From the NCBI GenBank assembly GCA_015069575.1, contig SVIH01000004.1:1-54858 (forward strand): a stretch of 54,858 nucleotides of DNA, given 5' to 3'. Below the pieces are notes generated by a model that ran no database searches, had not been told where the DNA came from, and saw only the letters and a program-made list of their open reading frames with translations. The DNA comes from Clostridiales bacterium. GTDB lineage: Bacteria > Bacillota > Clostridia > Christensenellales > QALW01. Shown piece after piece: positions 12,355 to 54,845 of the stretch (the stretch's first letter is position 1; every line of letters starts with the position of its first letter). The position numbers and the translations under genes were made by a program.

Positions 12355-13061
12355 TCTTCAGGCTTCTCCATATTTTCCAAAAAATCATATTGCCTGTCCA
12401 TACGGGCATTAAGTTGAATAATGCCGGACCTTACTTTATCTAATCTTTCATCAAGATCATCAATTCTGTTTATAATAGGAACAAGTTCAAATTTGGCGGC
12501 TTTACCCGGAAGTTTACGCATACAAAGCATTTTAAATTCTTCCATATATTTGGCTGTGCGTTTTTTTCTTATATTTTCAAACAACACATAAAAGAATTCA
12601 AACACACCCTGTACGATGATTAATGCAAAAAACAAACATACAAGATTTGGTATTTCTGCTATAAAGATGCCGGGTATCTTAATTGCGCCTATGCCCGCAA
12701 CAGAAAATCCGCATAAAGCAACTATTCTTGATGCGATTTTAAATAAATTTTTTGTTATAAACATATCGTTTTTTATAAGATAATTGTTTAACGCTACAGT
12801 ATCTTCGCAACAATATGCCTCATAATAATCGTTCCACATTTTTTCATAGCGTTTTGAAAGATTCAAACTTTCAATTTTTTTAATAATTTGCTCGCCCGTT
12901 TCTTCCCTTAACGCCTTTATTATCTTTCTAATAGATCTAAAACCTATTAAAGAAAGCACAACATATAAAATGAGAAGTGCAGTCATAATTAAAACTGTTG
13001 CCAAGAAAACATTCTGGCTGTTTAAATATACGGAAACAAACTGTTTAATAGCTTCTTTCAT
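12351..13061 (-). CDS. Uncharacterised membrane protein, first gene of the parAB operon
   Basis: 236 aa, not recognised. One hydrophobic segment at about residues 18-40 is followed by a charged cytoplasmic stretch (about 42-105) with helical character. Two more hydrophobic segments come at about 108-130 and 137-162, and then a charged C-terminal tail ending in a probable coiled coil (IINRIDDLDERLDKVRSGII). This layout loosely recalls MotA/TolQ/ExbB-type proteins, but no diagnostic motif is seen. Good GGAGG ribosome site. The ATGA overlap with parA and the single upstream promoter tie its production to ParA and ParB, so a membrane role in segregation or division is an inference. Confidence 0.75.
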   Translation of the reverse strand: MKEAIKQFVSVYLNSQNVFLATVLIMTALLILYVVLSLIGFRSIRKIIKALREETGEQIIKKIESLNLSKRYEKMWNDYYEAYCCEDTVALNNYLIKNDMFITKNLFKIASRIVALCGFSVAGIGAIKIPGIFIAEIPNLVCLFFALIIVQGVFEFFYVLFENIRKKRTAKYMEEFKMLCMRKLPGKAAKFELVPIINRIDDLDERLDKVRSGIIQLNARMDRQYDFLENMEKPEE

Positions 13062-13084
13062 TTTTAAAACACCTCCACTATTTT

Positions 13085-13114
13085 ATTTTAGCAGATATAC
13101 CCTACTTTTGTCAA
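13085..13114 (-). promoter_or_regulatory. Promoter of the membrane protein-parA-parB operon
   Basis: Minus strand: TTGACA (13109-13114), 18-bp spacer, TAAAAT (13085-13090). Confidence 0.68.
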
Positions 13115-26228: not shown

Positions 26229-27440
26229 TTACTTAATGATTGAGCTTACGATACCTGCGCCTACTGTTCTGCCGCCTTCACGGATAGCGAAGTGGAGACC
26301 TTCTTCAATAGCAATTTCAGTAATTAATGCGATGCTCATTGTGATGTTATCGCCAGGCATTACCATTTCTACGCCTTCAGGAAGGCTTACTACGCCTGTA
26401 ACGTCTGTTGTTCTGAAATAGAACTGTGGTCTGTAGCCGTTAAGGAAAGGAGTATGACGTCCGCCTTCTTCCTTCTTAAGAACGTATACTTCGCCCTTGA
26501 ATTCTGTATGGGGGTTGATTGTGCCGGGTTTGCAAAGAACCTGACCTCTTTCGATTTCGTCTCTCTGGATACCACGAAGAAGTACACCGATGTTATCACC
26601 AGCCTGTGCTTCATCAAGAAGCTTTCTGAACATTTCAACACCTGTTACTACTGTGCTTCTCTTTTCTTCGGTAAGACCAACGATTTCTACTGTATCCTGA
26701 ACTTTAATTGTTCCTCTTTCTACTCTACCGGTAGCAACTGTACCACGACCGGTGATTGAGAAAACGTCTTCAACAGGCATAAGGAAGGGTTTGTCTGTTG
26801 CTCTTTCAGGTGTAGGAATGTAGCTATCTACTGCATCCATAAGTTCAAAGATTGCTTTGCACCAATCATTTGCCTTAACATCTTCGCCCTTCTGTGCTGC
26901 TTCAAGAGCCTGGAATGCTGAACCTTTGATGATCGGAATGTCATCTCCGGGGAATTCATATTCTGAAAGCATTTCACGGATATCCATTTCAACGAGTTCA
27001 AGAAGTTCTTCGTCGTCAACAAGGTCTGTCTTGTTCATAAATACTACGATGTAGGGAACGCCTACCTGTCGAGCAAGAAGAATGTGTTCTCTTGTCTGAG
27101 GCATGGGGCCGTCTGATGATGCTACTACAAGGATTGCACCGTCCATCTGTGCTGCACCTGTGATCATGTTTTTAACATAGTCAGCGTGGCCGGGGCAGTC
27201 AACGTGTGCATAGTGTCTTGATTCGGTTTCATACTCAACGTGTGATGTGTTGATTGTGATTCCTCTTTCCTTTTCTTCAGGTGCTTTATCAATAGCGTCA
27301 TATGCCATTGCTTCTGCGCCACCTACTTTGGAAAGGCAGGTTGTGATTGCTGCTGTAAGGGTTGTTTTACCGTGGTCAACGTGACCGATGGTTCCGATGT
27401 TTACATGGGGTTTAGTTCTTTCAAACTTACTCTTTGCCAT
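26229..27440 (-). CDS. tuf: Elongation factor Tu, copy 1
   Basis: 403 aa, delivers aminoacyl-tRNA to the ribosome. G1 [10 protein letters not shown], switch I RGITI, G3 DCPGHADY and G4 NKTD are present, and domains II and III are complete. Protein identical to the copy at 53634-54845. This copy stands alone: no fusA is upstream, it has its own promoter, and the flanking genes (an MBL lipoprotein and a nucleoside ABC permease) are unrelated to translation. AGGAGG ribosome site in a leader that differs from copy 2. Confidence 0.98.
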
Positions 27441-47360: not shown

Positions 47361-47388
47361 AAAACGAAGGTGTTTCCACCTTCGTTTT
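47361..47388 (-). terminator. Terminator of the 1108-aa surface protein gene
   Basis: AAAACGAAGGTG / CACCTTCGTTTT, 12-bp stem, TTTC loop, T-rich on the minus side. Confidence 0.9.
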
Positions 47389-47397
47389 AATTGTTTA

Positions 47398-50300
47398 TTA
47401 GTCTTCTTTTCTCTTTTTAGAAACTACAACAAGTGCAATAGCAGCAAAAGCAACGGTTGCGATTAATGCAACGGGAAGAACATCGCCTGTGTCTGCGCCT
47501 GCAGCAGTGTAAATAATTTCATAGCTGAACTTTGTACTCTCACTGTTCTCAAATGAAGCAAAGTTAGCTACTTCAGCTTCTGCAAAGTACAATGTGAATT
47601 TAGCACCTTCTGGCACTGTGCCATCTTCAGTTTTAACACTGAATTTAGCAAGAAGCTTGCTGATTTCAACTTCGCTATCGTCTGTTAATTCAACTTTACC
47701 ATCCTTAGTATCGCAAACATACTTGATTTCTGCAATCTCACCTGCAGGAATGGTAATATATTCTGAATCAGCGCCTGCAACACTCTTCCAAGAACTACCG
47801 TCGCTTGTTGTTACGGTTGCAACAAGGTCAACCTTAACCATAATATCAAAGTCGTTGCTGTTCTTAATCTGGTATGTTTTAATAATCTCGCCGTTTTTAA
47901 CGTCTTCGGCTTTAACAATACCTGCGCCGGTTGAGAAATATGCTGATGCTGTATCAAGATCTTTTAATGCGGTAACTTTAAGCCCTGTAGGAATTTTCGG
48001 TGCTTCTACTGCGGGAAGTTCATATACAGGTGCAAGGGTCATACCGCTTGATGCGATAGGGTTGCTGTAAATAATATCAAGCTCTTCGTTTGCTTTAATA
48101 TAAATCTTATCGTCTTTCTTTAAGTCAGCATCCTTAAAGTTAAAGCGCAAGAACACCTTTGCAAGATCGTATTCTTTTTCTTTAATGGTAACCTTGCCGT
48201 TTACAACATCAATAGATGCCTTAACTTCTGCCTTCTGACCGATTGCGATTGAAACTGTGTCACTTGAAGGACCCCACCAACCGCTATCCTTAATCTGAAG
48301 GGAAGGTGTAACAACAAGCATCTTTGATGTTTTGTTGTAAATGGTATAAGTAATTTCTTTTTTGCCTGTAAAGGTAGGATCTGCATCAAAAACGCCTTCT
48401 GATGTGATAAAGTAATCAACCTTTTTATCTTCAGGCACAGTAAGCACGATGCCTACGGGCTTCTGGGGTTCCGGTGGGAACTCGTAAGCTAATTCCTTAT
48501 TAACGCCGCCTGCAACGAATTTTGTCATAACGAAATCTTCGATATCACCGTTTGAAGGAACAATAATAACAGAATCTTTATCCTTTGTGGCTCCGCCGTC
48601 AAAATTAAGTGTAAAGCGTAAGCGGATAAGGTTAAGCGCACCGTTTAAGCTACCGTCTGCCTTTAATTTAGCAATACCGTTTTCAACATTTACAAGTGCA
48701 GAAAGGTCACCCTTATATCCTGCAGGAAGTGTAATTTTTGTATGAGTTTCAGCATCACCGCTATGAGTTGTTGGATTATTTGTGCCATCATCAGTTAAAT
48801 CTAATAAAACAGTAATAAAGAATTCAACTGTAACAGTCTTATTACTTGTGTTATAAACAATATAGTCTAATTTCTTCTGTCCTGTGAATGAAGGATCTGC
48901 TTCCCAGGGTGAATTGTTGTAGTCGTTTACACCGATTGCACCTGTTGCCTTGTCTTCTTTTGCAATAAACTGAATACCGATAGGAGTCTTAGGTGTAGCC
49001 AAGGTTAATGCATCATCAGGTAACTGATAAACTACTTCCTTATCAACGCCACCTGCTGAGAACTTTGTAATAATAAAATCTTTGCTATTGCCATCTGCAG
49101 GAGCAATGATTACAGAATCACCAATATTTGCTCCGCCTGCAAATTCAAGTGTAAAGCGTAATCTGATAGTATTTAATGCGCCGTTTAAACTATCGTCAGC
49201 CTTCATTTTAACTGTGCCGTCTTCAACATTTACGTAAGCTGAAAGATCGCCCTTATATCCTGCAGGAAGTGTTATTGTACCGATAGTTTCAGCATCGCCG
49301 TTCTTTGTAGTTCCGCCTGACAGCATTGTAATATAAAGAGTAACCTTAACTTCCTTGCTGCTTGTATTATAAACAACATAGTTTAATTTCTTCTGTCCTG
49401 TAAAGGAAGCATCGCTTGCCCAGGGTGAGTTACCGTAATCGTTTACGCTAACTGCACCTGTTGCCTTATCTTCTTTAACACTATATTTAATACCAACGGG
49501 AGCCTGAGTGGGTTCCACTGGTGTTTCAGGTGATGTAACAGGAGTTGTTACAGGGGTTGTTACGGGTGTTGTTTCAGGTGTAGGTGTTGCCATCATCTGA
49601 AGGCTGGGGAACTCACTAGCGAGTACCTTTGCAAAGCCGTTGTTTGATGTAGTACCATAGAACATTGGGTCATTAATGTTTGCAGTTTCAATATAATAAA
49701 CTGCACCCATAGTTAAATTTTTATAGTTAATGTTAAAACGAACACGGATATCGCTTGCATTGATTTCCTGTCCATCAAGTGTAAGCTTACCGTTTGTAAC
49801 GTTAATTGAGTTTGTTAAAACAGCCTTACTGTTTGCAGGAATTGTAATATCGCTTGTGGAAAGATTGTTTCCTGCATTATAACCCCAATATGCACGTCTT
49901 GTAAAACGCAAACCAACAGAAACTTCTGTATCATTTGGGTTATAGAATGTATATGAAACCGTAAGTGCGCCTGTAAAATCAGGGCAATCTTCAAAAACAG
50001 CACCGTCTTGCTTACCGGCTGCAGTGCCGAAAACAATCATACCTGCGTTTGCATCAGTATTCTGTGTAACAGTTAACTTAACGCCCTTAACATTAACGGG
50101 ATTAGCACCGTACATCTTTGTAACGGTAAAAATGTATTGTGTATCGTTGGCATTTTTGCAGAACAATGCACTAACTTCATTAAGTGCTTCAACTATAAAC
50201 TGACGATCATTTGAATGATTGTTTTTCTGATCAATACGAACATTTAAACTTGCGCCGTTGCCGATTGCATAAGTTGTAACGCCATCGTTCTTTGTAACCT

Positions 50301-50724
50301 TATTATCTGCAGTTACAGGAATCTTTATTGTATATATCCTTGCACTGTTTGCAGGTATTGTCTGTTCGTTAGAATCATTTTCGTTTCCGGGATATGACTG
50401 TTGCAATACTTGCCATCCGCCAGAATTAACGTATGAATACGCAGAGACATTAATTGAAACAGAATTAAGGTTATAAATCTTGTATTGAAGAAGTAAGTAA
50501 CGTTCTGTGTTATTGCCAACTGTTTCTTCAATAATATCATCTGTTGTAATTCCAGTAAATTGGGCTATCATTGTCTTGTTACTGTGTGTTAAATCAGAGA
50601 CAAGTCTAATAGCCGTTACATCTGTTGATGCGGGCGTCCATGCTTCATTACTTGCAAGAGAAACAATACCAACGCAACCAAACACAATTGCAAGCGCAAG
50701 AACAACGCTTAAAAGTTTTTTCAT
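47398..50724 (-). CDS. Large repeat-containing surface protein, TGD-type C-terminus (1108 aa)
   Basis: Family not recognised. Signal peptide MKKLLSVVLALAIVFGCVGI to about residue 24. Six related modules of about 150-180 residues follow, at about 25-195, 210-385, 418-590, 595-780, 785-935 and 940-1070. A Thr/Pro linker (TPETTPVTTPVTTPVTSPE) separates modules 2 and 3. Modules 3 and 4 are close copies (KEDKATGA, SPW, FTGQKKL). Shared features include an aromatic-rich 'Y-x-[VI]-YN' strand and a '[NV]-G-K/T-[VA]' turn before an LRF motif, suggesting beta-sandwich domains. The C-terminus has TGDVLPVALIATVAFAAIA and KKRKED: hydrophobic anchor plus basic tail, but no LPXTG. Monocistronic, next to a paralogue. 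Confidence 0.8.
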   Translation of the reverse strand: MKKLLSVVLALAIVFGCVGIVSLASNEAWTPASTDVTAIRLVSDLTHSNKTMIAQFTGITTDDIIEETVGNNTERYLLLQYKIYNLNSVSINVSAYSYVNSGGWQVLQQSYPGNENDSNEQTIPANSARIYTIKIPVTADNKVTKNDGVTTYAIGNGASLNVRIDQKNNHSNDRQFIVEALNEVSALFCKNANDTQYIFTVTKMYGANPVNVKGVKLTVTQNTDANAGMIVFGTAAGKQDGAVFEDCPDFTGALTVSYTFYNPNDTEVSVGLRFTRRAYWGYNAGNNLSTSDITIPANSKAVLTNSINVTNGKLTLDGQEINASDIRVRFNINYKNLTMGAVYYIETANINDPMFYGTTSNNGFAKVLASEFPSLQMMATPTPETTPVTTPVTTPVTSPETPVEPTQAPVGIKYSVKEDKATGAVSVNDYGNSPWASDASFTGQKKLNYVVYNTSSKEVKVTLYITMLSGGTTKNGDAETIGTITLPAGYKGDLSAYVNVEDGTVKMKADDSLNGALNTIRLRFTLEFAGGANIGDSVIIAPADGNSKDFIITKFSAGGVDKEVVYQLPDDALTLATPKTPIGIQFIAKEDKATGAIGVNDYNNSPWEADPSFTGQKKLDYIVYNTSNKTVTVEFFITVLLDLTDDGTNNPTTHSGDAETHTKITLPAGYKGDLSALVNVENGIAKLKADGSLNGALNLIRLRFTLNFDGGATKDKDSVIIVPSNGDIEDFVMTKFVAGGVNKELAYEFPPEPQKPVGIVLTVPEDKKVDYFITSEGVFDADPTFTGKKEITYTIYNKTSKMLVVTPSLQIKDSGWWGPSSDTVSIAIGQKAEVKASIDVVNGKVTIKEKEYDLAKVFLRFNFKDADLKKDDKIYIKANEELDIIYSNPIASSGMTLAPVYELPAVEAPKIPTGLKVTALKDLDTASAYFSTGAGIVKAEDVKNGEIIKTYQIKNSNDFDIMVKVDLVATVTTSDGSSWKSVAGADSEYITIPAGEIAEIKYVCDTKDGKVELTDDSEVEISKLLAKFSVKTEDGTVPEGAKFTLYFAEAEVANFASFENSESTKFSYEIIYTAAGADTGDVLPVALIATVAFAAIALVVVSKKRKED

Positions 50725-50775
50725 AATTTGATCGTTCCTTTTTTTATAAATTTTTTAAGATGTATATACAGATTA

Positions 50776-50805
50776 ATTATAATATATTTGTTAACCGTTT
50801 GTCAA
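50776..50805 (-). promoter_or_regulatory. Promoter of the 1108-aa surface protein gene
   Basis: Minus strand: TTGACA (50800-50805), 18-bp spacer, TATAAT (50776-50781). The sequence around the -35 (AAATATTGACAAA) is shared with the promoter of the neighbouring paralogue. The rest of 50806-50930 is AT-rich with nothing recognisable. Confidence 0.75.
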
Positions 50806-50930
50806 TATTTTTTGCTAAAAAAATTTATTAATTTTTTTATGTATTTTTTGGTTTTTTTGCTTATTTCTTACATCAAAATTTACGCTGTGATTTTTTTGTG
50901 TTATATCTTGTTTTTTGAATAATTTACAAA

Positions 50931-50956
50931 AAAATAACGGAGACATTTTGTCTCCG
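50931..50956 (-). terminator. Terminator of the 785-aa surface protein gene
   Basis: CGGAGAC / GTCTCCG stem with a T-tract on the minus side. Confidence 0.85.
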
Positions 50957-50978
50957 CTATTATTGTTTAAAAATGTTA

Positions 50979-53336
50979 TTAGTCTTCTTTTCTCTTTTTA
51001 GAAACTACAACAAGTACGATAGCAGCAAAAGCAACTGTTGCGATTAATGCAACGGGAAGAGCGTCGCCTGTGCCTGCGCCACCTGCTGTGTACACAAGTT
51101 CATAATCCCATCTTGTGCTATCTGAAAGTGTTTCAAATCCTCTTGCATATTCTTCGCCAAAGAACACAGTAACTTTTGTGCCTTCTTCAACTACAACGCC
51201 ATCGTTTTTGAGTGTAAATCTTGCAAAGAGTGAAGTAATGGGTAATTCCTCTTCCATAACAATAACTTTGCCATCGAAGGTTTCGCATTCAAATGTAACT
51301 TCGCCTGTTTCGCCTGCTTCGATAGTAACAAATGTGCTGGTTTCAGCGCCTTCAGGTGTTCTCCATGAATTCTGACGATCAACCTTAACAAGTGCCTGAA
51401 GTTCCATTTTAATCATAATATCAAAATCGTTATTGTTTTGTACTTTAACGGTTTTTATGAGTTTATTGCCCTGAACATCTTTCTGAGAAGCAATTCCGCC
51501 ACTTGTTGATGTTATAAAGTATGCATTGTTAAACGCAGTATCTTGAAGGGCAGTAACTGACATACCTGATGGAATCTTTGGAGCTTCTACTTTAGGAAGA
51601 TCTGCTTTACCAAGCATTGTCTTTACAAATTCAGGTTCATTTACATAATTTTTAATGAACCAATCGTTTTCATCTTCTGTAAGAGATGCAACAATGAATT
51701 CGTTGCCTGCATTTTTGTTAGCTTCAGCAAACTTCACATTAAAGCGAATACGAAGCTGGCTTAATGTTGCTGTAGCGCCCTGTGCAGCATCAAGAGTTGT
51801 AACGCCGTTAACAAAAGGAGTTGAAATAGTCATATCCTTATATTTACCGGGTTCGATTACAACTTTAACTTTTCCTTCAAATGTGTTTGCGCCAACACCT
51901 TTGTTGTTGTTGAAAAGAAGTTCAACTGTTAATTTTGTGTTGCTTGTGTTGAAAACACGATAACTATGAGTGATGGTTCCGTTAAATGTAGGATCATCGC
52001 TCATGTATTTACCTATTGCACTCCAGTTGCAAAGGTTATACTGTGTTGTTTTTGAAGATTTTTCTACAAACTTAGCGCCGATAACTTTTCCGTCAGGAGT
52101 AGGTGCAGGTGTTACAACAGGTGTGGGTGTTGCAACAGGTGTGGGTGATGGTTTTGCTTTACGATATGCTTCTATTGTAAAGTCTGCACTATCTTCCCAC
52201 TGTACACCGTTTTGAAGTTCGGGCATTTCTACTGTGAAATATTCGCCTGCTGCAAAGTTGCTGCCTGAAACAATACCAATGCGAACATAAAGGTTTTCAA
52301 GATCTACAACTTCGTCACTAGCATCAATTTTTGCCTTACCGTTTGCATCAACATTTACCTTTACAGTAATTTCTCTTGTTTGACCTGCTGTAAATGTTTT
52401 TCGACCGGTATCTTTACCATCAACATATGTTGAGCTTCCATCTGCTTTATAACCCATCATATATGTCTGGGTTTTAATTTCGTGGTTTGTATGGTTTGTT
52501 ATAGTAAATGTTTTAACGATAGTTGTGCTTGTGCCATCCCAATCAGCGCTTGTGAATATTCCAGCCTTAACAGTTGCGCCCCTTTGTGAATAGAATGCAG
52601 TTGTTGCATTAACCGGATTAATTGCAGTAAACTTATAGCCTGCATGTACTGTGTTAGGATCGGGTGTAGCTGTTGCTGTAGATGTAGCAGTAGATGTAGC
52701 TGTTGTTGTAGATGTAGCAGTAGATGTAGCTGTTGTTGTTTCTGTAGGTGTTGCAGCAGGTTGACCAACGGCCTCAAAAGAAACATATGCGTTTTCTTCC
52801 CATGCTGCACCGTTTTTAAGAGAATCCATTTCAATTATGAAATATTCATCTTTTAAAAGCTGATATCCTGCTGTGTTTTTAAGGCCTACACGAAGGAAAA
52901 GTTTTTCGGGCTCAATGGTGCTGCCATCAACCAAAACTGCTTTTCCTGTAGAATCTACAGTAAACTTTATAGTAACATCTTTGCTTCCGTTTTTAGGAAT
53001 TGTATGTATAGCATTGTTTGCTCCGTTTGCCTTTGATACGGTGCCGCTTGTGTTACCAAACATATATGCCTGTATTTGTATATCGTGGTTATTGGGGTTT
53101 ACAACGGTGAACACTTTTGACACTGATAGTGTTGTGCCATCCCAGTCAGCACTAGTAAACACTTCTGCCTGTGCACCTACCGCCATAGTAGTGCTAAGAT
53201 TCTGACCAACAGTAACATTTTTCTTAGCAGTAATTTTGTAGCCGGGGTTTGTAGTACCGCCATCTGCAATAGCAACCATGCTTACGCAGCCAAGAACCAT
53301 TGCTAATGCAAGAACGAAACTTAATATTTTTTTCAT
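50979..53336 (-). CDS. Large repeat-containing surface protein, TGD-type C-terminus (785 aa)
   Basis: Paralogue of the neighbouring 1108-aa protein; function unknown. Signal peptide MKKILSFVLALAMVLGCVSM. Four modules at about 30-195, 232-395, 420-600 and 605-745. The first two are near-duplicates (GYKIT/GYKFTA, FTSADWDGT). Two low-complexity linkers separate modules: TATSTATSTTTATS-type after module 1 and PTPVATPTPVVTPAPTP after module 2. The last module and C-terminus closely match the paralogue (NDFDIM, TGDALPVALIATVAFAAIV, KKRKED). Probably a secreted, membrane- or wall-anchored adhesin or structural layer protein. The ribosome site (AAGGAG, 14 nt before the ATG) is distant, though GGAAGAG lies nearer. 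Confidence 0.8.
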   Translation of the reverse strand: MKKILSFVLALAMVLGCVSMVAIADGGTTNPGYKITAKKNVTVGQNLSTTMAVGAQAEVFTSADWDGTTLSVSKVFTVVNPNNHDIQIQAYMFGNTSGTVSKANGANNAIHTIPKNGSKDVTIKFTVDSTGKAVLVDGSTIEPEKLFLRVGLKNTAGYQLLKDEYFIIEMDSLKNGAAWEENAYVSFEAVGQPAATPTETTTATSTATSTTTATSTATSTATATPDPNTVHAGYKFTAINPVNATTAFYSQRGATVKAGIFTSADWDGTSTTIVKTFTITNHTNHEIKTQTYMMGYKADGSSTYVDGKDTGRKTFTAGQTREITVKVNVDANGKAKIDASDEVVDLENLYVRIGIVSGSNFAAGEYFTVEMPELQNGVQWEDSADFTIEAYRKAKPSPTPVATPTPVVTPAPTPDGKVIGAKFVEKSSKTTQYNLCNWSAIGKYMSDDPTFNGTITHSYRVFNTSNTKLTVELLFNNNKGVGANTFEGKVKVVIEPGKYKDMTISTPFVNGVTTLDAAQGATATLSQLRIRFNVKFAEANKNAGNEFIVASLTEDENDWFIKNYVNEPEFVKTMLGKADLPKVEAPKIPSGMSVTALQDTAFNNAYFITSTSGGIASQKDVQGNKLIKTVKVQNNNDFDIMIKMELQALVKVDRQNSWRTPEGAETSTFVTIEAGETGEVTFECETFDGKVIVMEEELPITSLFARFTLKNDGVVVEEGTKVTVFFGEEYARGFETLSDSTRWDYELVYTAGGAGTGDALPVALIATVAFAAIVLVVVSKKRKED
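52678..52740 (-). repeat. 30-bp tandem repeat (two copies) coding a Thr/Ala/Ser linker
   Basis: The 30-bp unit at 52678-52707 is repeated exactly at 52708-52737, itself built of a GTAGATGTAGC half-repeat. It encodes TATST runs; copy number may vary. Confidence 0.75.
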
Positions 53337-53388: not shown

Positions 53389-53418
53389 ATAATATCATAA
53401 TTTTTATATATTTGTCAA
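53389..53418 (-). promoter_or_regulatory. Promoter of the 785-aa surface protein gene
   Basis: Minus strand: TTGACA (53413-53418), 18-bp spacer, TATTAT (53389-53394). It implies a leader of about 45 nt. The remaining intergenic part up to 53583 is AT-rich; a small ACGCA/TGCGT hairpin with T-tract at about 53511-53533 faces the plus strand and serves no known gene. Confidence 0.65.
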
Positions 53419-53591: not shown

Positions 53592-53617
53592 AAAAGCACC
53601 GCGTTTGCGGTGCTTTT
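53592..53617 (-). terminator. Terminator of tuf copy 2
   Basis: Same AAAAGCACCGC / GCGGTGCTTTT hairpin as tuf copy 1. Confidence 0.9.
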
Positions 53618-53633
53618 AATCTGTAATTTTTAA

Positions 53634-54845
53634 TTACTTAATGATTGAGCTTACGATACCTGCGCCTACTGTTCTGCCGCCTTCACGGATAGCGAAGTGG
53701 AGACCTTCTTCAATAGCAATTTCAGTAATTAATGCGATGCTCATTGTGATGTTATCGCCAGGCATTACCATTTCTACGCCTTCAGGAAGGCTTACTACGC
53801 CTGTAACGTCTGTTGTTCTGAAATAGAACTGTGGTCTGTAGCCGTTAAGGAAAGGAGTATGACGTCCGCCTTCTTCCTTCTTAAGAACGTATACTTCGCC
53901 CTTGAATTCTGTATGGGGGTTGATTGTGCCGGGTTTGCAAAGAACCTGACCTCTTTCGATTTCGTCTCTCTGGATACCACGAAGAAGTACACCGATGTTA
54001 TCACCAGCCTGTGCTTCATCAAGAAGCTTTCTGAACATTTCAACACCTGTTACTACTGTGCTTCTCTTTTCTTCGGTAAGACCAACGATTTCTACTGTAT
54101 CCTGAACTTTAATTGTTCCTCTTTCTACTCTACCGGTAGCAACTGTACCACGACCGGTGATTGAGAAAACGTCTTCAACAGGCATAAGGAAGGGTTTGTC
54201 TGTTGCTCTTTCAGGTGTAGGAATGTAGCTATCTACTGCATCCATAAGTTCAAAGATTGCTTTGCACCAATCATTTGCCTTAACATCTTCGCCCTTCTGT
54301 GCTGCTTCAAGAGCCTGGAATGCTGAACCTTTGATGATCGGAATGTCATCTCCGGGGAATTCATATTCTGAAAGCATTTCACGGATATCCATTTCAACGA
54401 GTTCAAGAAGTTCTTCGTCGTCAACAAGGTCTGTCTTGTTCATAAATACTACGATGTAGGGAACGCCTACCTGTCGAGCAAGAAGAATGTGTTCTCTTGT
54501 CTGAGGCATGGGGCCGTCTGATGATGCTACTACAAGGATTGCACCGTCCATCTGTGCTGCACCTGTGATCATGTTTTTAACATAGTCAGCGTGGCCGGGG
54601 CAGTCAACGTGTGCATAGTGTCTTGATTCGGTTTCATACTCAACGTGTGATGTGTTGATTGTGATTCCTCTTTCCTTTTCTTCAGGTGCTTTATCAATAG
54701 CGTCATATGCCATTGCTTCTGCGCCACCTACTTTGGAAAGGCAGGTTGTGATTGCTGCTGTAAGGGTTGTTTTACCGTGGTCAACGTGACCGATGGTTCC
54801 GATGTTTACATGGGGTTTAGTTCTTTCAAACTTACTCTTTGCCAT
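53634..54845 (-). CDS. tuf: Elongation factor Tu, copy 2
   Basis: 403 aa, identical in sequence to the protein of the first copy, with the same GTPase motifs. The upstream 13 bp in the window (GAGGAAAATTAAA before ATG) differ from copy 1. The closely placed GAGGA ribosome site would fit a position behind another gene such as fusA, but that gene would be outside the window. Downstream lies its terminator and then the surface-protein locus, not the S10 ribosomal operon. Confidence 0.98.

Follow-up and report, generated by a model that had tools for sequence, protein, structure and literature searches.

Two adjacent, probably surface-tethered proteins of a Clostridiales bacterium built from a repeated, genus-level module

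A module absent from the searched domain libraries is repeated four times in protein A and six times in protein B, the products of two adjacent minus-strand genes of a Clostridiales bacterium. The genes lie in the 54,858-nucleotide stretch of DNA analysed here (the window) and are bounded by tuf and by a transporter gene, which, from reading its sequence, we take to be of the CorC/HlyC type. Both proteins are very probably surface-tethered chains of sandwich modules, and such chains would probably take the form of a stalk or rod. The whole explanation that we lean towards is one of tethered, stalk-like proteins of sandwich modules that perhaps hold glycans; from the features described below we infer a rod shape, wall display, strong expression and the job itself. 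The module family is probably new, and the overall layout of such surface proteins is known.

The repeated module and its remote kinship

Protein A (50979-53336, minus strand, 785 aa) begins with a signal peptide (residues 1-25, 53262..53336), placed by hydropathy, and continues with the type I module A1 (52761..53246, with FTSADWDG), a Thr/Ala/Ser-rich linker encoded by a tandem DNA repeat (52644..52760), the type I module A2 (52158..52643), a Pro/Thr linker (52086..52157), the type II module A3 (51606..52085), module A4 (51087..51569) and a C-terminal tail (50982..51104). In protein B (47398-50724, minus strand, 1108 aa), a signal peptide (residues 1-25, 50650..50724) precedes module B1 (50131..50622), module B2 (49615..50088), a Thr/Pro linker (49495..49614), the near-duplicates B3 (49015..49494) and B4 (48475..48981), module B5 (48013..48456), module B6 (47503..47988) and the tail (47401..47523). 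The modules were delimited by profile analysis of A and B and measure about 145-170 aa; the cleavage places of both signal peptides are putative. An earlier note on this DNA had counted about six copies in B and four in A, which agrees with the present result, but its word "giant" is too strong for two proteins that are large.

The modules do align with one another. In a leave-out test, each module was scored with a profile from which it was absent, together with its closest partner in the cases of A1/A2, A4/B6 and B3/B4, and all ten were recovered at 23.8-62.5 bits, with B1 the weakest. Shuffled modules (100 per module, 1,000 in total) reached at most 10.2 bits, and the 32 other proteins of the window at most 15.5 bits; this top score belonged to an L,D-transpeptidase whose tail is rich in Pro and Thr, a match which was judged to be compositional and rejected as a relative. 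Several single pairs are not significant when compared directly (A4-B1, z -0.5; B1-B4, z 0.2; A1-B4, z 0.5). Amino acid identity is 67% for B3/B4, 41% for A4/B6, which are each other's nearest relatives, 35% for A1/A2, and 12-27% for all other pairs, so that of the near-duplicate internal pairs proposed earlier only B3/B4 deserves the name. The motif that the earlier note gave for the module (FTG...YN, NGK, LRF) describes B2-B5, which are of type II, and comes close to A3, but does not apply to A1, A2 or B1, and the only residue invariant across 18 aligned modules is one Asn. Linkers rich in Thr/Pro or Thr/Ala/Ser are likewise confined to three of the eight junctions (A1-A2, A2-A3 and B2-B3); the remaining five are 6-14 residues each.

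The ends and the last module are common to A and B and the inner modules differ, a pattern that suggests duplication plus shuffling, as had been proposed, and sister proteins do combine the module with other domains. In a tree of 18 modules, A1 and A2 group with C1-C3 of a sister protein (support 96/94) and B3 with B4 (96/98), the pairing of A4 with B6 is less sure (93/77), and the deeper forks lack resolution. B3/B4 would represent one later event after the duplication and shuffling. A recent duplication can be claimed for this pair at most, and even here it was not very recent, as the DNA matches in two blocks of 183 nt at 76% and 181 nt at 75% identity.

The earlier statement that the module is not a recognised one holds for the libraries searched: nothing in Pfam or NCBIfam reached a curated cut-off, neither an Fn3-like or Ig-like profile nor that of a known carbohydrate-binding module (CBM) family, and the best PDB sequence found with an 18-module profile had E 0.034. 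No publication title on the module was among the literature-search matches listed. AlphaFold, with the 18 modules as input, gave confident, mainly beta sandwich models for B5 (pLDDT 84.9) and A1 (pLDDT 90.6). Foldseek found no match to either model at E <= 0.001, and VIA-align returned best Z scores of 6.6 and 7.3, with viral jelly rolls on top, a level at which, by the tool's own note, a common arrangement may be all that is meant. In the first list, CBM22 (Z 6.5) and CBM4 (Z 6.1) were tied with the top viral rows; in the second, CBM rows (Z 5.1-5.9) stood below the viral rows (7.1-7.3). The fold search thus yields only generic sandwiches, and no family can be named from the fold.

By hhalign, the module scored 85% against three Fn3-like (PF14310) domains and 95% against three modules of surface proteins of genome G035, both rough values from few sequences, and the similarity spans 59-73 columns of the roughly 150-aa module. 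Eight proteins with partial module matches, out of seven of eight genomes, were scanned with Pfam. The partial match overlaps the Fn3-like domain of family 3 glycosidases in L048, L051 and L068, fn3_5 of a subtilase in L047, and a CARDB-like region below the cut-off in L046; L054 has no Pfam family, L049 has below-cut-off families only, and L069 has Pfam families that score best elsewhere than in the module match. Weak matches overlapping PF14310 or PF06280 thus occur in four of the seven scanned genomes. What links the module to Fn3-like (PF14310), fn3_5 (PF06280) and CARDB-like Ig/Fn3 domains is a weak similarity of profiles in the central strands, whereas the module reaches none of their curated cut-offs and its full-length copies are found only in this genus. 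The module is probably a remote, lineage-specific Ig/Fn3-like sandwich. A relationship to the CBM_4_9-like stretches of sister proteins was considered but found no support in profile comparison, as hhalign gave a probability of 0.2% (unrelated) between the module profile and the CBM-like profile of the genus; the latter profile retrieved only thioredoxins from the PDB sequences, at E 0.46 or worse.

The search in other proteomes that the earlier note had called for bears out this narrow distribution. The module is present in two of the three genomes of the genus, with no match in G001, the third. This genome has 16 matches at E <= 1e-3 in five proteins (four in A, six in B, four in protein C, and one each in protein D and the C10 protein). 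Across the order, matches at E <= 1e-3 occurred in 8/297 genomes; those of this genome and of G002, also of the genus, are full-length, and those of the six others are partial, with <=25 bits. Class and phylum were scanned at E <= 1e-4: three of 391 genomes matched in the class, this genome in full and two partially at <=25.1 bits, and in the phylum this genome was the only match among 398. Queries with the C-terminal pair and the type I modules found no relative in a genome contig collection, and none was found in collections of viral contigs, plasmids and phages; such collections may omit records from this genome or very near it, and the genome contig and viral contig searches start from short exact patterns.

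Matching ends and signals of expression

A surface location, as earlier suggested, agrees with the hydrophobic segments of A and B, which are confined to the two termini, the C-terminal one standing just before a final KKRKED. The ends also match as claimed: the C-terminal residues, about 41 in number, are 85% identical (90% over 126 nt in DNA), and the signal-peptide DNA is 75% identical over 72 nt. The tails read GAGTGDALP in A and GADTGDVLP in B, followed by the hydrophobic run and KKRKED. They have no LPXTG motif before the hydrophobic segment, and the NCBIfam LPXTG model has no match to either protein at E <= 10 and one below cut-off to a sister protein of G001. Other features of sortase substrates are present, namely the hydrophobic segment, the positively charged end and sortase genes in the genome. 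Three genes exceed the Pfam sortase cut-off, one nearest to class D and two to class B, and none reaches a class-model cut-off. Apart from the missing LPXTG, the tail resembles a sorting signal. Lipoprotein anchoring is also possible, because a Cys recurs in the signal peptides of A (residue 17), B, C, E, F and the G001 protein, though not in that of the C10 protein; the LPAM_1 match (Pfam) had only E 2.6. One class B-like sortase gene (L072:1372-2268) adjoins, by eye, a conjugation-type ATPase and a recombinase-like frame, a neighbourhood that is perhaps an integrative element.

The tail forms a small family of its own. A profile built from A, B, D and the G001 protein matched five proteins of the genus at E <= 1e-4, namely these four and, as an independent match, a CBM_4_9 protein of G002; there were further matches, many of them weak. 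The tail peptide alone retrieved A and B only, and a tail DNA pattern retrieved A, B and one further site, with one site also for the backward control.

Each gene has its own promoter-like site and 3' terminator-like hairpin, all on the minus strand. The site of A (53389..53418) reads TTGACA-18-TATTAT (11/12) and that of B (50776..50805) TTGACA-18-TATAAT (12/12), both preceded by AAAAAATA; the hairpins lie 3' of A (50933..50961), 3' of B (47361..47388) and in the gap between tuf and A (53592..53617). Promoter-like sites are as frequent in the region as expected by chance (21, against a shuffle mean of 21.8), so weight should be placed on their place and quality and on the shared AAAAAnTATTGACA context. 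Spread over three genomes of the genus, this context precedes the genes of A, B, C, F and the G001 protein (including L036:10090 on the minus strand and L038:2753), and it was not seen upstream of E.

Codon adaptation, calculated with seven translation genes as reference, is 0.633 for A, 0.628 for B, 0.627 for C and 0.631 for D, values exceeding those of 30 of 32 window genes (mean 0.500, sd 0.076, the second tuf at 0.785 included). When every reference gene was scored against the set without itself, the values were 0.63-0.77, and a putative rplJ frame gave only 0.529, so codon adaptation, a weak proxy, suggests but does not show that A and B are highly expressed. The two tuf genes of the window (26229-27440 and 53634-54845, both minus strand) are identical in DNA (1212/1212 bases), which may reflect gene conversion, a recent duplication or an effect of the assembly.

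Sister proteins and the company of the module

Elsewhere in the genus, the module stands next to other domains in related proteins. Protein C (L035:8584-12981, 1465 aa), directly 3' of rplL, has three type I modules, two stretches that resemble CBM-like domains by eye and alignment, though without a Pfam match, one more module and a different C-terminus. A small reading frame 3' of it (L035, about 13001-13110) starts MKNIYVSPELDIIEIKASQVLTGKSGDFDLGGEGEED and encodes a short acidic peptide. Protein D (L007:125-1384) consists of a CBM_4_9 stretch, one module and a tail with TSD for TGD; its CBM_4_9, which just exceeds the Pfam cut-off, has E 3.8e-6 when the domain is scanned alone and is absent from the whole-protein Pfam scan at E <= 0.1. 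D lacks an intact start, as its frame is broken near the contig end (L007:1-190). Directly 3' of D lie two tandem glycosidase genes (L007:1414-6051) with apiosidase-like, DUF5060 and F5/8 type C domains. The C10 protein (L099:890-1780), which shares 39% identity with D across 282 residues, has a signal-peptide-like start, a CBM_4_9 (E 1.4e-5, exactly at the Pfam cut-off) and a divergent module (E 2.5e-4). In protein E of G002, modules occur together with a cohesin (E 2.6e-9) and a dockerin (E 1.8e-8). In this 1.59-Mb genome, a membrane-tailed cohesin protein (L075:367-1893) adjoins a dockerin protein (L075:1903-3030) whose front part has no Pfam family and is glucosaminidase-like by eye.

Two further proteins share the tail family and not the module. 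A 686-aa protein of G001 has nearly the same tail as A and B and the same promoter context, with three stretches alignable with the CBM-like ones, in which Pfam finds nothing; the C19 protein of G002 has a CBM_4_9 and a related C-terminal tail. In both, CBM-like stretches take the place that the module has in A and B, but only that of the G002 protein is a Pfam CBM_4_9. The company of the module in other proteins points to glycan handling, which was not among the earlier proposals.

Possible roles of A and B

What do A and B do at the cell surface? Both would be secreted, probably well expressed, and tethered at the C-terminus through a tail that is either sorting-signal-like or membrane-held. 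Between signal peptide and tail, the chain would be a row of four or six beta-sandwich modules, part of which Thr/Pro/Ala linkers may space. The module would belong to a fast-diverging genus-level family, probably of remote Fn3-like/Ig-like descent, that spread among several surface proteins by duplication and shuffling. The most likely job of such chains would be to hold glycans, or to place glycan-binding or glycan-cutting partners at the cell surface. A glycan-holding role, by the modules themselves or with partners, is suggested by architecture alone and we propose it tentatively: a Pfam scan of A and B shows neither a CBM, cohesin or dockerin nor a catalytic domain, and the profiles of the module and of the CBM-like stretches are unrelated. 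It would go further to regard the module as a new, genus-restricted carbohydrate-binding class, and A and B as strongly expressed multivalent nets with four and six sites that hold polysaccharide for neighbouring glycosidases and cohesin/dockerin partners, and this we consider doubtful. A likeness to cellulosome-type scaffoldins exists only through protein E with its modules, cohesin and dockerin, since A and B carry neither of the latter.

Other roles can be drawn from the same features. Fn3-like and Ig-like domains often serve as spacers, and the modules might be neutral ones that bind nothing and only project or stiffen, with a functional partner docking elsewhere. The single invariant Asn and the fast drift in sequence would suit this. 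Yet A and B consist only of modules, linkers and ends, so that only a tip module or partner of different function would give them something to project, and we regard pure spacing as unlikely. A fibrillar adhesin for protein or cell targets, in which the modules serve as the stalk and B1 or A1, at the N-terminus, is the adhesive tip, seems equally improbable to us. Fibrillar adhesin-like proteins are described as having tandem stalk-like domains and a surface anchor (Monzon et al., PMC8286594, PMC9210967), a layout matched by the signal peptide, tandem stalk-like modules and putative C-terminal anchor of A and B, and B1 is the most divergent module. From that description A and B differ in a module without a Pfam match at cut-off and a tail that is not LPXTG. 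No adhesive Pfam family was found in them at E <= 10, the domains that co-occur with the module concern carbohydrates, and A1 groups with A2 and C1-C3, so that A1 is no special tip. The adhesin suggested by the earlier note is plausible in the sense of a stalk, but with no known adhesive domain. Periscope proteins also line up tandem folded domains in one anchored chain, but their repeats are described as highly identical (PMC9704523), and those of A and B, at 12-67%, are too different for the class as described there.

The earlier note also offered a paracrystalline layer, that is, a structural coat in which A and B form a dense layer with the modules as lattice units. An immunoglobulin-array S-layer has been reported in Deinococcus radiodurans (PMC10120038), and the repeated predicted sandwiches, the raised codon adaptation, the good promoter-like site of each gene and the adjacency of two paralogues could fit such a coat, the expression signals indirectly. 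Pfam at E <= 10, however, finds no SLH or CWB2 wall-binding domain in A or B; diverged modules with Thr/Pro linkers would suit flexible chains better than a lattice, and sister proteins join the module to CBM_4_9 or to cohesin and dockerin. A coat is accordingly quite improbable in our judgment, and the preferred reading is still that of tethered, stalk-like chains that perhaps hold glycans.

In either case, a beta-sandwich module absent from the searched domain libraries is used by one genus of small genomes in several surface proteins. Should the module serve only as a stalk, it would join the lineage-specific stalk domains already known. Glycan binding would instead make it a further class of binding domain and illustrate how polysaccharide may be held by proteins, here A and B, that carry no known CBM.
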